The notes under the pieces: model-generated
The model's input: the letters and a program-made list of their open reading frames with translations, nothing else
What the model was told of the DNA's origin: nothing
Database searches by the model: none
NCBI GenBank assembly: GCA_905182125.1
Contig: CAJJAV010000006.1
Span: 30,760-94,759 of the forward strand
Source of the DNA: an uncultured Candidatus Poseidoniales archaeon
GTDB lineage: Archaea > Thermoplasmatota > Poseidoniia > Poseidoniales > Poseidoniaceae
Length of the DNA: 64,000 nt
Reading direction: 5' to 3'
Shown here: in pieces, positions 43,534-52,916 of the stretch
How the letters are laid out: each line of letters begins with the position of its first letter
How positions within the stretch are numbered: position 1 is the first letter of the stretch
Made by a program: the position numbers and the translations under genes

Positions 43534-43782
43534 TCACTCGGTTGCTTCGGGAGATTCTTGCTCACCGACTTCTTCAGCTGGTGCGTCGGCCTTCATTGCT
43601 TCATCTGTTTCATCTTCTGAAACCATGAGGCGAACACCGTTGGCAAGAGCGCCAATGGCCAAGAGGTAGAACATGACCGTGATGTAATCTACTGGGTGAT
43701 CGAAGTTTGACCAATATCCGAACGTTTCTTGATTGGTCACGATTGAACTTTCCATAGTATCAGCATCTGCAGCACCGATCAT
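43534..43782 (-). CDS. Small single-TM protein with acidic tail, immediately downstream of the CD36-like gene
   Basis: 82-aa ORF 'DYITVMFYLLAIGALANGVRLMVSEDETDE...'; 25-bp gap. Confidence 0.5.
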   Translation of the reverse strand: MIGAADADTMESSIVTNQETFGYWSNFDHPVDYITVMFYLLAIGALANGVRLMVSEDETDEAMKADAPAEEVGEQESPEATE

Positions 43783-43807
43783 CGATGATGATTTGATTGT
43801 GAAAACC

Positions 43808-46384
43808 TTAGTTCAAATCAGACATTTGAGGAGCTGTTGTCATGTTTGTATTTTGACGCGTGTCCAAGTAGAATGTTGTTGTGGATTCACCAGCAATAAT
43901 CAAGCCAGATAGTTTTTCACTCTTCAATGTAATATCACTGCCCAAGAAAATTGGTAGAGCGCTCGGTGTTGCATCGAGCAATGTGAATGTCTGCAAGTTC
44001 TTTGCTTGAATGGAACGTGTTGTTGCTTCAACAGATGCCGTACAAACATCAACTGGAATATTTTCAACGGTTCCTGTTGCGTCACAAGTAACTGGAACGA
44101 CTGCATAGCCTGAGACATCGACCTTGTCGTCGGTTCCAGTTAGGAATCCGCCGGTTGCACCATCGAGGTATTCAACTCCAATCAATCCAAAGGTTGCTGT
44201 GGCCATTCTGGTGTTATGCCATGGCAGTTCATTGGAACCGTCTTCTAATACTGATTCTCCTTTGTCGCATCCTGCAACTTCCCCAGTACAAATTGTGTAT
44301 GAGGTTCCGTCACCATTGAGAACTCCGTCAGAGCCATAGTATGTTTCATTGGTATCGAGAGAAGCCCATCCAACGGTCATGTCCATTGGGTTTCCTGAAG
44401 CAAGGAAAGCGCTAACTGGATCGTGCCATCCGAATAACCACGCACTCACAGGCTGTTCCAAATACTGCGTCGTTCCGAATGAACTCATCAAAAATCCTGG
44501 TACGAACGATTCTGATGTTTCGCCATAGATTGGACCCATCATCAAAGCGCGAACTGCGCTTGCTGCATTTACATCGATTCCGTAGAGTGTTGCAATCGTT
44601 GAAGCATTCCATTCCATTTGTGGTCCGCCTTGCATTGTGGTGAAATCGATTGGAGGTGTTTGTCCTGATAATTCACCGAAGAGGAATATTGTTGCTCCTG
44701 CTGAAGTTGTGAGTCCAAGAGGGCCATAGAGGAGGTTACCAGATTGTGCTGCGGTCAACTCGACTGCCGGAGCGCCAAAAGATGCACCGACAACTCCCCA
44801 TGCACCGCCTAAGTTCAGGCTGTTGGTTAGGAAACCACCGTTGATTGGGTCTGCTGCTCCGAAGGAAACATTAACGAATTCTTCAGCAGTCATTGTACCA
44901 GTTCCTCCAAGGAGAATCATTGGAAGAGCAGTTGCGCTTGTGAGCCATCCGCCAACCCATGCTCCGACTGCAGCATATTGTGTTGCATCGAGGCCATAGG
45001 TTGTCATTGCAGTAGCAGCATCCATTCCAGCGAATGCAGCAATACCGAAGGATGTGCTTTCGAGATTGGTTGCGAGAATACCTGTTGGCATGTCAGTATC
45101 TTGTCCACCAAAGAGAAGACCCATTGCAACTGTGTTATCGATGTCAACACCAAGATAGTTCATCATTCGTGTTGAAGCATTGACTGCAAGAGGATCTTGG
45201 AACCAATCATCATCAGCCCCACCGTGAGTCATTGAGAATGCTCCTCCGACACCGAAACATACCGCAAAGTCTGTTGCGATTGTAGCGTTGATGTCAGCGG
45301 ATGCATAGCCCCAGATACTTGCTCTTTGCATTGTTCCAACGTTTGCAAAGCCATTTGCTGCATCAGCCATAACTTCACCATAAGTTGCTGTAGCGAAGGC
45401 GTTACAGTGCCCAGCAAAGATGAGAACACCTTGCATGCTGGTAAGTGAAGCATCTTCGCCAGTTGGCATCATTGCTGTCTCAAATGCAGCTGATAAATCT
45501 CCAATAGATTGGTTTCCAGTAAAGGTTACGCCAGCGGCGTTGACACCACCTGCTGCTTCTGCTGCTTGCAGTCCCTGAATCGCCATGGTATAGGTAATCA
45601 TTTCTTCATTTCCAGTCATATTGTTCATTTGTGAACCGTTAATGAGGGCAAAGAATGCATCATATGCATCATACCAGCCCATTCCGAGCATCATTGATGC
45701 GTTTGCAGCATCGACTGGTGTTCCTTCGGTCAGTGCGCCCATTTGGATACCGCCGTAAGAAGTTGCAATTCCATCTGCTGTTGCTTTTCCAGCGGAGAAG
45801 GATTCCATCTCATTACCGATTGCACCAGCAGCGAATCCAGCCTTTGTCGCATCCATAATTCCATTAATGGCCATTCCTGTTGCACCGATCACCTGTGGTT
45901 GGAATCCAATGTTTATTTGAGTTACAGGAGTGTCACAAGGATTTGCACTTTCTGCAGCGCATTGATGTGCCTTGACTTGAGTGTATGTTAGAGTGCCATT
46001 TGTTTCATCATAGCCAGTAATGGTTTTGGTACTGGTAATATCGTAAGTGAACGGCCCAAGCTCTTCGTAGGTCGGTTCTGAACCATTGGCCATCATATCG
46101 TCAAGATTTGAGATTGACCAAGCGGAATAGTCGCGCTGGGAAGTAGAAACTGCCCAATCGGCCTCTGCTTCTGTACAATCATCGTTTGCACACGCTGTAT
46201 CTTTTGTGTAGGTCGCAAATGTTTCGTCGACTGCATCTTGGACTCCACCAGTCGATAGTGGTGCCAAAACTGCGAGGTTTAGAATGAGGAACATTAGGCC
46301 GGCTACAAGCATCGCTTTATTGGATTTCAATAAGGACATAACCAACGGTAGGACATCGGATGCGGTATAAGCCTTAGTGTGCAT
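43808..46384 (-). CDS. CD36/scavenger receptor class B-like membrane protein with large Ala/Gly/Met-rich insertion
   Basis: N-terminal TM; 'DYSAWSISNLDDMMANGSEPTYEELGPFTYDI'; 'SAWLFGWHDPVSAFL'; 'MTVGWASLDTNETYYGSDGVLNG'; 'PIFLGSDITLKSEKLSGL...TTFYLDT', in the CD36 order. Start chosen at MHTKAY (46384). Confidence 0.6.
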   Translation of the reverse strand: MHTKAYTASDVLPLVMSLLKSNKAMLVAGLMFLILNLAVLAPLSTGGVQDAVDETFATYTKDTACANDDCTEAEADWAVSTSQRDYSAWSISNLDDMMANGSEPTYEELGPFTYDITSTKTITGYDETNGTLTYTQVKAHQCAAESANPCDTPVTQINIGFQPQVIGATGMAINGIMDATKAGFAAGAIGNEMESFSAGKATADGIATSYGGIQMGALTEGTPVDAANASMMLGMGWYDAYDAFFALINGSQMNNMTGNEEMITYTMAIQGLQAAEAAGGVNAAGVTFTGNQSIGDLSAAFETAMMPTGEDASLTSMQGVLIFAGHCNAFATATYGEVMADAANGFANVGTMQRASIWGYASADINATIATDFAVCFGVGGAFSMTHGGADDDWFQDPLAVNASTRMMNYLGVDIDNTVAMGLLFGGQDTDMPTGILATNLESTSFGIAAFAGMDAATAMTTYGLDATQYAAVGAWVGGWLTSATALPMILLGGTGTMTAEEFVNVSFGAADPINGGFLTNSLNLGGAWGVVGASFGAPAVELTAAQSGNLLYGPLGLTTSAGATIFLFGELSGQTPPIDFTTMQGGPQMEWNASTIATLYGIDVNAASAVRALMMGPIYGETSESFVPGFLMSSFGTTQYLEQPVSAWLFGWHDPVSAFLASGNPMDMTVGWASLDTNETYYGSDGVLNGDGTSYTICTGEVAGCDKGESVLEDGSNELPWHNTRMATATFGLIGVEYLDGATGGFLTGTDDKVDVSGYAVVPVTCDATGTVENIPVDVCTASVEATTRSIQAKNLQTFTLLDATPSALPIFLGSDITLKSEKLSGLIIAGESTTTFYLDTRQNTNMTTAPQMSDLN

Positions 46385-48635: not shown

Positions 48636-51600
48636 TTAGTCTTCCCAAACTGCCCAATCTTCCCATCCTTCCTCACGATACCACCAGACGCCTTCTTCAT
48701 CTTCCCACCATTCAGTACCGTTTTCGTCCGTGCTGATGTCGGGCTCTTCGGCTTCTCCGTCGGCCTCTTCGAAAGAAGATCCCCCGTCAAATGTTTCGGA
48801 TTCATAGTCTTCAATTTCCTCAACAGGAGAAGTGTCGAATTCATCGAACAGACTTGATGCACGTTCTTCTGGAACTTCGATATCATCGATTGAGCGCCCC
48901 TCGGATTTCAGTTCCTGAAGAGATTTGCTCGATTCGCTTCCTGGTTTCTCTACGACTGGGGCATCGGTTTCTTCTTCGTCTTCGTCGTACCAATCGTCCT
49001 CTTCATCTTCCTTATTTCGTAAGACGATCACGCCGCCAACAACAGCGACCACCAAGAGAAGTCCGAGGATGCTGCCAACCAAAAGTGGAGCTGAACTCTT
49101 GGTATCGGTCGGTGTTGTGTCAACTGGTTGTTCCACCTCAGGTTGTTCGCCCAGCGTCCATTGCAATTCACCTTCAGTGCTTGCGGTTGGTGTGGCCATG
49201 GAGTCGCACTGATTGGCTCCGCCGACCTCCGAGCATGTGATGTAAACGATGTACTCCACACCCTGGATGCCAGGGAACAAACCGTCAGAGGGCCCATTAC
49301 GAACCGGTAGGAATTCAACTTGAGTCGAGCCCTCCGCAGAAATGGTGAGGGTTGGCTCACTTCCACTCAATAAGGACGACTCAAAGGTGAACGGTGGAAG
49401 CGTTGTTGGAATCACTTTCCAGGAAAACCCTACGAACACATCAAACGGATTCGGATTGGTAATGGTGCATTCGATGGTTGAATCCGTGCCATCCCCCTCC
49501 CACGCGTAGGTGGCCGTGCCGCACTCGATGAGGGCCGGCAGGGTTGCATCGGGGAACGATGGCTCTTCTGTCTGATTGTTCTCGGTCTCATTGGAGTCCG
49601 TCTCGTTTGTATCATTGCCGCTGCCACCGGAGCCGCCGGCAAAGGAGAACACGAGCGGATTGATCGATGGAATGATCCAAGACTTGCTTGGGTCAGAGAT
49701 GAGGGTCAAGGTATCAGTGGAATTGGCCGTGCCTGAAAGAATCAATTGGCCCCCTTTCACTTCAATCGTACCGCTGCTGGTGATGTTGCCGCTGGCGTTG
49801 TGCTGCTCCCAACTGTAGGTTAGCCCTTCGAGGTAGGTGTTCTGTGTTGGCAATTCCGCAGACAAGTCAACCTCAAGGTTGTAGACACCTGATTCATCAA
49901 CACTGAGAACGGGGCCATCCATACTGATCTCAGCACGAAGCAAACCAATTCCTTCCAATGTGAGGGTCGCTGGTGCAACGGGTTGCATGCTTATGGCTCC
50001 ACTGTTCCCGAGGTATTCGATGGTGAATGAAGCACTGTCAAAGAACGTGATGAAGGTCCCGCCGAGTTCGGTGAGGGCTTCCACTGCGACAGCTTGCCAG
50101 ATCCCTTCCTCATCTGTGGTTCCCGAGATACTGAACGTGATGCCTGTTGCCTCGACGTGAAGTTCGAGGTCTTCACCGGCCAGTAATTCGCCGTTGGCGC
50201 TCAAAGTGATGTTGAGGTACAATGAATCAAGAGCACTCAAACCGAATTGCTTGAGGGCATGGTCGCTGCTCGATGAGAGGGTGTACTCAATCAACGCACT
50301 TCGCATTGAGTTGTTCAGTGGACTCACAGGGCCTGCGGTGCTGAAGGACGAGGTTGCGTTACCATAGCTGTCAAAGGCAACGACTGCAGCATAGTAAGGG
50401 GTTCCGTCTACAAGGATGGAACCAACTTCTGCCGTGTTGACAGACATCGTTGGTTGATTGGTCGAATGAGGCAGGGTTGCGATGGCTACCAAACCGTCAA
50501 GGGAGCTGATGTTGGAACTTTCAACATAGACGCGATATTCGACAGGCCCATCGCTCGAAATGTTCCATGTCACATCAAGTGAACCACCGGTGTCATTTGT
50601 GGTATCGGACAAGGTAAGCCCGTTCACTGCAGATGGGGGTCCTGGGTATGGGATGGTGACGAGCACCGGTGTGGACATGGAGCTTGTCACCCCAAACGAA
50701 TGGAGGGAGCGGACGCCGTAGACATAGGATTCACCGTGAACGACGTCGCCATCAATGGTCATGTTGATGCCTTCATTGGTCAGCGGAGAAGTCAGGTCGA
50801 ATGTCGTGTTTGGGGCGGAACGGAACACTTCGAATTGGATGAGATCGTCCCCGAAATCAGTGATGTCTTGCCATTCAATTGTAACATAATCTGAAGTTAA
50901 TTCTGACACCAAAACGACCGGTGTTGGCGGAAGGGAGAGGTTTGGCGCCCCTGGAACATATTGGGCGATCAATCCTGAAACTGCGAAGGTCCCATTCAGG
51001 GTTGAATTGACTGGGATGGGGATGAGGATTGTTCCGGTACCGGCTGTTTGCTGTTGATTGATGATGTTGGTCAGGTTACCCGCTGAATACGGATTGTTTT
51101 CGACGATGAAATCTGCGTCATACCCAATGTCAAAACCTGAGAGGTTGAAGGTCCCGTTTCCAGTGTTTGACATAGAGAATTCGAGGGTCGAAAGGCGCAC
51201 GTCAAAACCATCGGCGGTGTAAGGGAGGGCATTCATCAAGACTGAAAGGATGGCCGAAATGTTCCCCATCGGATCTTCGATGTAGAGTGGTGTCATACCA
51301 AATGAAGCATCGCCCGCATAGCCTGATGTTGCGAGGTCGTCTTGGCCATCGTTGTTGACGTCAAGACCAATGTGGTGCCAGCCACCAATGTACAGGCCAA
51401 GGGAACTTTCACCTGCTGCGACAATGTGTTCGAGAAGGCCATCGCCGTTCATATCAACGGCTTGGACATTGGTTGGTATTGACCACGGTTGCACGGCTGC
51501 TGAGACGTTTCCGATGGATGTAGCGTTCAGATCGAAGACGTTCAAATTACCATCAATGGTTTGGGCAATGCCATCGCTTGACCCTGGAGCGGGGATCACA

Positions 51601-52916
51601 AGCGATGTTGTCCCGTCGCCATCATGGTCGAAGATCGAGGCATTGGTGAGTTCAACAGTGGACAGCACGCTTGTAGTGTTCCATTGCACCCCATCATTCA
51701 AGGCGATTGTGTAGCCTTGTTGATTGGTCCCAATAAAGTCGATGTCTCCGTCGCCGTCAAAGTCGCCAGTCACGAAGTTTGATTCTAAGCCATCGAAGTG
51801 GTTTGGATTTTCAGTGATGCCGCTGCCGAGCACCCATCCGAGGGGTGTGCTGTGACCAAAGAAATCCGTGACGACGGCTGAGAATATGGTTGAGTTTGCC
51901 CCAAACACTCCCGCAGTCATTGATGTGAGTGTGGTGGCTGTTGCGGTGTTGTTCATGTTGATGGTGTGGGTTTGGTTGTCGGCGAATGCACTGATTTTGT
52001 CATTGTATGTTCGGACCACAAACTGTCCACCCGCGTGAATTGAAACCACGTCAGCATGACCATCGTTGTTGAAATCGCCGACGGCTGCAGAAATACTGTT
52101 GCTGTACAAGGAAAGAGGCTGCGCAGCGCCAAGAGCAGAGGTTGCAGCATTTGTGAAATGGACACAAGCTAAATCCGAACCATAGGCGAAGGTGACGATG
52201 TCATCGTGGCCATCGTCATTGAAATCGCCTACATCAACCTCGCTGGCACCAGCGCAGGTTTGTGTCCAATTGGAGGTGTTGAGTCCTGAAGTAGAGTCCC
52301 AATCAATACGAAGGATGCCTGCATTGAATCCGGTCACGGTTGAATCTCTTGAAAGAACAACAATCTCTGGTAGCGTGTCATTGTCGGTATCCCCAGAAGT
52401 GTAGTCGGTGACCGCACCAACTGGCATGAAACCCCCGTTCACTTCGGGGGTGAACGAAGTGTTGAGCTGTGCAGATTCAATCGATGATGCGAATGGAAGG
52501 AAAAAGAGAGATGATAACGCGGCTCCTGTCGAGAACACTTCAGAAGATGTGTTTCCGTTGGAAAAAGTGTTTTGATGGCCAAGATCGCCGTAGCCTAAAC
52601 CTTCGAAAGCCCATTCTTTGACCCCGTCTTGACCGATGTCAATGTACACTTGGCCAGGTGATGAAACCTCGGCTTTGGCGTTAATCAAGAACGAAGCCGA
52701 ATTGAAGGTCACGTTTCGTGGCACTTCAATTCCGATCTGGGTGTTTATTTGGCCCTCTATGACGCTGGCCGTAGGCGCAGCACTGCCTCCATCGAAAGTG
52801 CTCACCGCCCCCGCTGTGGGGTTTGCAGAAACGGAAATTGCCGCAAATGACTGAAGCAACAAGAGCAGAACAAGAACATACGGGCCGGTTCGGCGAGGGT
52901 TATCCATGGTTGTCAC
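48636..52916 (-). CDS. Large secreted protein: FG-GAP/VCBS-like repeats and FN3 domains, C-terminal TM, acidic tail ending in Trp-rich motif
   Basis: Signal peptide; 'GDFNDDGHDDIVTFA', 'GDFNNDGHADVVSIHA', 'GDFDGDGDIDFIGTN'; TM 'APLLVGSILGLLLVVAVVGGVIVL'; tail 'EWWEDEEGVWWYREEGWEDWAVWED'. Confidence 0.85.
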   Translation of the reverse strand: MTTMDNPRRTGPYVLVLLLLLQSFAAISVSANPTAGAVSTFDGGSAAPTASVIEGQINTQIGIEVPRNVTFNSASFLINAKAEVSSPGQVYIDIGQDGVKEWAFEGLGYGDLGHQNTFSNGNTSSEVFSTGAALSSLFFLPFASSIESAQLNTSFTPEVNGGFMPVGAVTDYTSGDTDNDTLPEIVVLSRDSTVTGFNAGILRIDWDSTSGLNTSNWTQTCAGASEVDVGDFNDDGHDDIVTFAYGSDLACVHFTNAATSALGAAQPLSLYSNSISAAVGDFNNDGHADVVSIHAGGQFVVRTYNDKISAFADNQTHTINMNNTATATTLTSMTAGVFGANSTIFSAVVTDFFGHSTPLGWVLGSGITENPNHFDGLESNFVTGDFDGDGDIDFIGTNQQGYTIALNDGVQWNTTSVLSTVELTNASIFDHDGDGTTSLVIPAPGSSDGIAQTIDGNLNVFDLNATSIGNVSAAVQPWSIPTNVQAVDMNGDGLLEHIVAAGESSLGLYIGGWHHIGLDVNNDGQDDLATSGYAGDASFGMTPLYIEDPMGNISAILSVLMNALPYTADGFDVRLSTLEFSMSNTGNGTFNLSGFDIGYDADFIVENNPYSAGNLTNIINQQQTAGTGTILIPIPVNSTLNGTFAVSGLIAQYVPGAPNLSLPPTPVVLVSELTSDYVTIEWQDITDFGDDLIQFEVFRSAPNTTFDLTSPLTNEGINMTIDGDVVHGESYVYGVRSLHSFGVTSSMSTPVLVTIPYPGPPSAVNGLTLSDTTNDTGGSLDVTWNISSDGPVEYRVYVESSNISSLDGLVAIATLPHSTNQPTMSVNTAEVGSILVDGTPYYAAVVAFDSYGNATSSFSTAGPVSPLNNSMRSALIEYTLSSSSDHALKQFGLSALDSLYLNITLSANGELLAGEDLELHVEATGITFSISGTTDEEGIWQAVAVEALTELGGTFITFFDSASFTIEYLGNSGAISMQPVAPATLTLEGIGLLRAEISMDGPVLSVDESGVYNLEVDLSAELPTQNTYLEGLTYSWEQHNASGNITSSGTIEVKGGQLILSGTANSTDTLTLISDPSKSWIIPSINPLVFSFAGGSGGSGNDTNETDSNETENNQTEEPSFPDATLPALIECGTATYAWEGDGTDSTIECTITNPNPFDVFVGFSWKVIPTTLPPFTFESSLLSGSEPTLTISAEGSTQVEFLPVRNGPSDGLFPGIQGVEYIVYITCSEVGGANQCDSMATPTASTEGELQWTLGEQPEVEQPVDTTPTDTKSSAPLLVGSILGLLLVVAVVGGVIVLRNKEDEEDDWYDEDEEETDAPVVEKPGSESSKSLQELKSEGRSIDDIEVPEERASSLFDEFDTSPVEEIEDYESETFDGGSSFEEADGEAEEPDISTDENGTEWWEDEEGVWWYREEGWEDWAVWED

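Follow-up and report, generated by a model that had tools for sequence, protein, structure and literature searches.

A CD36 family protein with a large helical apical domain in Candidatus Poseidoniales, and its homologues in Asgard archaea

CD36 takes up fatty acids and is the fat-uptake receptor of animals. The closest described systems to the gene reported here are CD36 itself and LIMP-2 (SCARB2), the latter crystallised, as its structural report describes, with cholesterol and phosphatidylcholine (PMC5712522). A 2023 survey recorded the CD36 domain across Eukarya and inferred its presence in the last eukaryotic common ancestor, with archaea unmentioned (PMC10715195). A second relevant group comprises LmcA and PgfA (PorA, DUF3068, PF11271), membrane-anchored lipid-handling proteins of mycobacteria and their relatives that are restricted to Actinobacteria and whose limited structural homology to CD36 has already been noted (PMC9678360). 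Our literature search, the scope of which left subscription papers and preprints largely outside, found no paper naming CD36 in Poseidoniales or Asgard archaea; the Pfam CD36 label may already be present in automatic database annotation. The CD36 family itself is known, and what is new here is its archaeal distribution and the large apical domain of the archaeal proteins.

The DNA under study is a stretch of 64,000 nucleotides from an uncultured Candidatus Poseidoniales archaeon, referred to below as the window. A first-pass annotation had pointed to CD36-family hallmarks in the open reading frame at 43808-46384 (minus strand, ATG at 46384), which encodes a protein of 858 aa (P0001). All of the strings it quoted are present, and P0001 matches Pfam CD36 (PF01130) at 44.4 bits against a curated cut-off of 26.5 (E 1.1e-11), the sole Pfam family that it matches. 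The match lies mainly in about 80 positions (residues 89-167), HMMER coverage being mainly of profile positions 57-134 with a second stretch in some homologues. PF01130 is likewise matched by 35/35 aligned homologues (best E 2.2e-20), some single-segment matches among relatives scoring below the curated cut-off. Matches were seen in 0/14 control genomes, and the resemblance to CD36 greatly exceeds what chance would give. A search of PDB sequences with P0001 alone gave no match and only the profile search succeeded: run against all PDB sequences, the homologue profile retrieved LIMP-2 first (E 2.4e-6) and CD36 second (8.2e-5), the next match being an ADP-ribosyltransferase at 0.02. Its alignment to LIMP-2 consists of two segments in the same order in both, at chain residues 37-114 and 129-215, the second weak when taken alone. 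One proposed motif correspondence did not hold: 'PIFLGSD...TTFYLDT' had been equated with 'PHFLYA...TYLDI' of CD36, and the two are out of register, since both profile and multiple alignments place GSDITLKSEKLSGLIIAG opposite HDTYLDIEPLTGAAMNAA and 'FYLDTR' one strand later. The window protein is an archaeal protein that truly belongs to the CD36/class B scavenger receptor family, and its membership is firm. It has in common with LIMP-2 and CD36 the Pfam match, the order of core segments, the topology with two membrane helices (in intact relatives) and the top fold matches, whereas identity in fold alignments is about 8-13% and the archaeal ectodomain is roughly twice as long. No cysteine is invariant among the 35 homologues; the metazoan ectodomain disulfides are therefore not common to the archaeal proteins, and conserved ectodomain disulfides are a metazoan rather than a family-wide CD36 trait.

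By comparison with relatives, the whole CD36-like gene spans 43534-46384 (minus strand), where five relatives (L064, L039, L070, L061, L066) have a single unbroken reading frame and the window has two parts. The main frame begins with an N-terminal membrane helix (residues ~21-43, 46256-46324), placed by hydropathy and corresponding to model helices at residues 21-38 here and 3-38 in the relative L219. The N-terminal part of the CD36 core follows (residues 60-160, 45905-46207), bearing the GPFTY motif and delimited by the Pfam match, by the profile alignment to LIMP-2 37-114 and by hhalign against the Asgard N part. The inserted helical domain (residues ~161-640, 44465-45904) then separates it from the C-terminal part of the core (residues 641-858, 43811-44464), which carries the WLFGWHDP and LPWHN motifs and aligns with LIMP-2 segment 129-215 and, by hhalign, with Asgard CD36. 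The gene had initially been taken to end at 43808. Pairwise DNA alignments to four relatives (L064, L039, L070, L240) instead reveal one extra base near 43811-43813, absent from 4/4 of them, although the exact base within the run is ambiguous. In this assembly the gene is split by that single base, either a true frameshift or an assembly error, which cuts off the last strand and the second membrane helix. The relatives continue past the window's stop codon through a final strand region, another membrane helix and an acidic tail, and their in-frame C-termini (L064, L039) are matched by an out-of-frame piece at 43534-43782 (minus strand) that encodes the end of the last ectodomain strand region, the second membrane helix (YITVMFYLLAIGALANGVRLMV, 43621-43686, with an in-frame counterpart in relatives and helix 801-842 in the L219 model) and an acidic cytosolic tail. 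This small frame matches no Pfam family of its own, and the idea that it is a separate partner gene was rejected because it corresponds to the in-frame C-terminus of relatives. Thus the second membrane helix of the window protein is encoded but out of frame, while nearly all intact relatives have one helix at each end of the large ectodomain (hydropathy and the L219 model). Upstream of the extra base, 113/177 mismatches to the closest relative (L064) fall at third codon positions, and P0001 is therefore a maintained coding gene.

Structure prediction for P0001 gave a mean pLDDT of 76.9 and a pTM of 0.68. In a PDB fold search of this model the best ten matches were all LIMP-2 or CD36, with probabilities of 0.98-1.00 that fell to 0.05 immediately afterwards, and these matches are weak (E 4e-3 to 7e-2, TM up to 0.35). 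A model of L219, a relative with an unbroken gene, was built from 75 sequences and reached a pLDDT of 86.6 and a pTM of 0.76; CD36 and LIMP-2 account for all of its best 13 matches, with E from 1.6e-6 and TM reaching 0.61 across the LIMP-2 chain, and next in rank comes LmcA, a lipid-binding protein of mycobacteria. The predicted fold thus agrees with the motif-based assignment, weakly for P0001 and strongly for L219. Neither of the two outcomes that the first-pass annotation had named as refuting its reading was observed, since the CD36 profile matches above its curated cut-off and LIMP-2 and CD36 head the fold matches. Both models contain a strand core broken by a helical domain, which in L219 occupies residues 134-545 between strands 126-130 and 550-554, with membrane helices at both ends of the protein (3-38 and 801-842).

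The helical domain is about 480 residues long in P0001 and about 410-480 across the modelled proteins, where LIMP-2 and CD36 have a small apical bundle. Its position in place of that bundle, as originally suggested, is confirmed by the two LIMP-2 profile segments that flank it (chain residues 114 and 129), by an insertion at the same site in Asgard proteins and by the L219 model. The description of the segment as low-complexity has to be revised. It is Ala-, Gly- and Thr-rich, and SEG masks 29 of its ~475 residues, split over two short stretches. Its columns are conserved to a degree close to the core's (mean majority 0.51 vs 0.54 and 0.59), 35 of them at 90% or more, and the models predict a mostly confident helical domain. 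In codon comparisons third positions vary most, although the remaining positions change proportionally more often here than they do in the core. As modelled, the insertion is a conserved, predicted helical domain that replaces the CD36 apical bundle, and its sequence variation fits a putative ligand-facing, faster-evolving apex. The lack of the small apical helix bundle is not counted against membership, since the apex of eukaryotic CD36 proteins is evolutionarily labile (PMC10715195) and not family-defining.

The gene is far more widely distributed than the single protein first described would suggest, extending across the order and into Asgard archaea. CD36 matches occur in 54/60 relatives of the window genome, and the neighbourhoods are conserved and archaeal, so that the window gene is archaeal and not part of a stray contig, as the initial description of an archaeal member had supposed. 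Among 393 genomes drawn from the window's phylum 103 have matches, all 103 in two families of the window's order. Apparent absences are partly false, since 13/24 genomes without a Pfam match have the gene by a Poseidoniales profile, in many cases truncated at a contig end; in three genomes of genus g14 that profile found no CD36 either. A CD36-like gene is near-core in both families of Ca. Poseidoniales. The order is assigned to Ca. Poseidoniales through named genomes: match coordinates equate G398, a member of the window's family, with UBA53 and G387 with a named Thermoplasmatota genome, and the copy of the named Poseidoniales genome AG-404-A19 groups with family f2 in the tree. Two copies occur in some genomes, in certain cases head to head, and in three family-f2 loci (L031, L032, L033) the head-to-head pair are divergent paralogues. 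No CD36 was found in phylum samples of a Calditenuaceae genome (0/200), Methanoculleus (0/149) or a gammaproteobacterium (Pseudomonadota; 0/299), searches that a remote member could escape, or in the remaining named archaea searched; viral contigs yielded 45 pattern matches, 0 of them relatives. An archaea-specific 16S pattern was seen on contigs (L113, L142) from genomes that bear the labels Campylobacteraceae and Gammaproteobacteria and may be contaminated bins.

In the phylum of a Lokiarchaeota genome strong CD36 matches were found in 10/197 genomes, a patchy distribution. Eight full Asgard proteins (L207, L209, L210, L211, L214, L215, L216, L217) match CD36 at E 2e-51 to 2e-98, and four further loci are fragments (L203, L208, L212, L213). 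Plain phmmer aligns L211 with human LIMP-2 at E 5.5e-43, with ~296 residues inserted between positions 114 and 116 of the LIMP-2 chain, the same site as the Poseidoniales insertion. Eukaryotic contamination was considered as a source of the Asgard matches and is unlikely, given long intronless reading frames, a gene order common to three genomes and neighbours of prokaryotic type (ThiF and JAB, QueC, MeaB, AIR synthase). The CD36 family is not restricted to eukaryotes.

Profile-profile comparison (hhalign) matches the Poseidoniales C-terminal core to Asgard CD36 at 99.1% (E 1.4e-18) and the N part to the Asgard N part at 98.6% (E 5.7e-16), and by these alignments the two sets of proteins are homologous; the first of them also supports the C-terminal half of the CD36 domain in the Poseidoniales proteins. 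The Asgard proteins (L207, L209-L217) have in common with those of Poseidoniales the CD36 core, two membrane helices and a large insertion at the same site. Their core is much closer to human LIMP-2 than the Poseidoniales core is, and the insertion sequences are weakly alike: profile-profile comparison of the insertions was not significant (probability 5.5%), and in a direct profile search one Asgard protein scored 15 bits, against at most 4.8 for any of 400 shuffled sequences, which is no more than suggestive of homology between them. Within the insertion of L209 (5426-8923, protein residues ~612-855) a 118-residue unit is tandemly duplicated (score 466 vs 59 in shuffles); the apical domain can therefore grow by internal duplication. 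The compact Asgard protein L217 (549-2369) also matches PF11271 (PorA/DUF3068) above cut-off, and so links CD36 at the level of sequence to LmcA/PgfA, the lipid proteins of mycobacteria.

A tree of 316 core columns, with LIMP-2 as the one eukaryote included, separated Poseidoniales as one group (100) from Asgard proteins plus LIMP-2 as the other (100), and positioned LIMP-2, which has a long branch, amid the Asgard sequences (90). Because a single eukaryote on a long branch was used, the tree gives no direction of descent or transfer. In a tentative scenario, against which the odds lie somewhat, the CD36 family would be archaeal in origin and inherited by eukaryotes through their Asgard ancestry; the apical bundle of animals would then be a remnant of a large helical domain that Asgard archaea retain, as do Poseidoniales, which would have acquired the gene by transfer. 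Through the Asgard homologues, phylogeny can put the origin of a receptor family of eukaryotes to a direct test, and the function of the apex can be tested independently on the archaeal apical domain.

The best explanation for the window protein, to which we assign a probability of roughly 0.6, is that this genuine CD36 member acts as a surface lipid receptor or conduit that would feed fatty acids to beta-oxidation. The computed elements of this reading are family membership, fold, two-helix topology in intact relatives, the apical insertion and order-wide distribution. The two membrane helices would anchor the large ectodomain outside the single cell membrane, and the barrel-like conserved core most likely accommodates lipid and delivers it to the membrane in the manner of LIMP-2 and CD36. 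The big, faster-evolving helical apical domain most likely captures the ligand or its carrier particle; its faster evolution relative to the core is what a ligand-facing region should show. Marine organic matter would supply the ligands, fatty acids or other lipids, and imported lipid would then be degraded by beta-oxidation. In favour of a lipid ligand stand the binding of cholesterol and phospholipid by LIMP-2 (PMC5712522) and the rank of the lipid-binding LmcA as the next fold neighbour after CD36 and LIMP-2. Fatty-acid degradation is encoded in all genera of Poseidoniales (PMC6461757), transcription of 3-hydroxyacyl-CoA dehydrogenase is high in situ (PMC9723583), and PF02737 was present in 26/26 genomes tested. 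In several family-f1 genomes a gene that fuses 3-hydroxyacyl-CoA dehydrogenase with enoyl-CoA hydratase is found a few genes away from one CD36 lineage. Co-occurrence of CD36 and beta-oxidation proves nothing, however, because beta-oxidation is universal in the order, including genomes in which no CD36 was found, and the neighbours of the window copy are housekeeping genes (purM-like, esterase, Trm1, PAC2, MCM), which counts against a lipid role. If the proposed role is true, the protein is a candidate lipid-uptake route for one of the most abundant planktonic archaeal groups.

The same large, sequence-variable and fastest-evolving apex could belong to an adhesin, in which a CD36-type stalk presents the apical domain to attach the cell to particles or other cells and no lipid is transported. 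Families and genera of Poseidoniales differ in adhesion, among other functions (PMC6461757), and adhesion is a function of some CD36 relatives (PMC4912623); yet the core equivalent to the lipid-handling part of LIMP-2 is conserved in parallel, which a stalk would not need, and we consider this explanation unlikely. Lipid traffic might also run the opposite way or inside the envelope, with the protein exporting endogenous lipids or surface molecules, as has been proposed for PgfA and LmcA. The rank of LmcA directly after CD36 and LIMP-2 in the L219 fold search and the PF11271 match of the Asgard protein L217 point this way, as does the binding of trehalose monomycolate by PgfA (PMC9678360). LmcA and PgfA are smaller than the window protein. 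P0001 matches neither PF11271 nor the PgfA model, and no envelope-lipid synthesis genes were found adjoining the CD36 gene, so that outward delivery seems rather improbable.

Import of carotenoids by SR-B proteins is known in insects and vertebrates, and the window's genome has a rhodopsin gene, so uptake of a carotenoid or retinal precursor for proteorhodopsin may be envisaged in place of fatty-acid supply. Rhodopsin does not track the CD36 gene: six CD36-bearing genomes lack it at 85-97% completeness (G047, G039, G157, G055, G058, G330), and four genomes without detected CD36 have it (G173, G364, G187, G051). This speaks against the carotenoid role, which we hold to be very improbable. Least credible of all is a chance or convergent set of motifs in an unrelated archaeal surface protein, a reading that can appeal to the PDB search in which the single P0001 sequence matched nothing and to a Pfam match confined mainly to ~80 positions, but that is already refuted for practical purposes by the PF01130 matches of all 35 aligned homologues, the homologue profile's retrieval of LIMP-2 and CD36 first in the PDB, the profile-profile match to Asgard CD36 and the fold searches of two models.

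Two further observations concern the surroundings of the gene. Near the CD36 gene, the window encodes a large FG-GAP-repeat surface protein of 1426 aa (48636-52916, minus strand). Family f2 (L046, L047, L050, L051, L054, L056) keeps a conserved gene neighbourhood around CD36, in which a TctA-family transporter occurs together with a secreted protein that has both lamin-tail and phospholipase-D-like domains.
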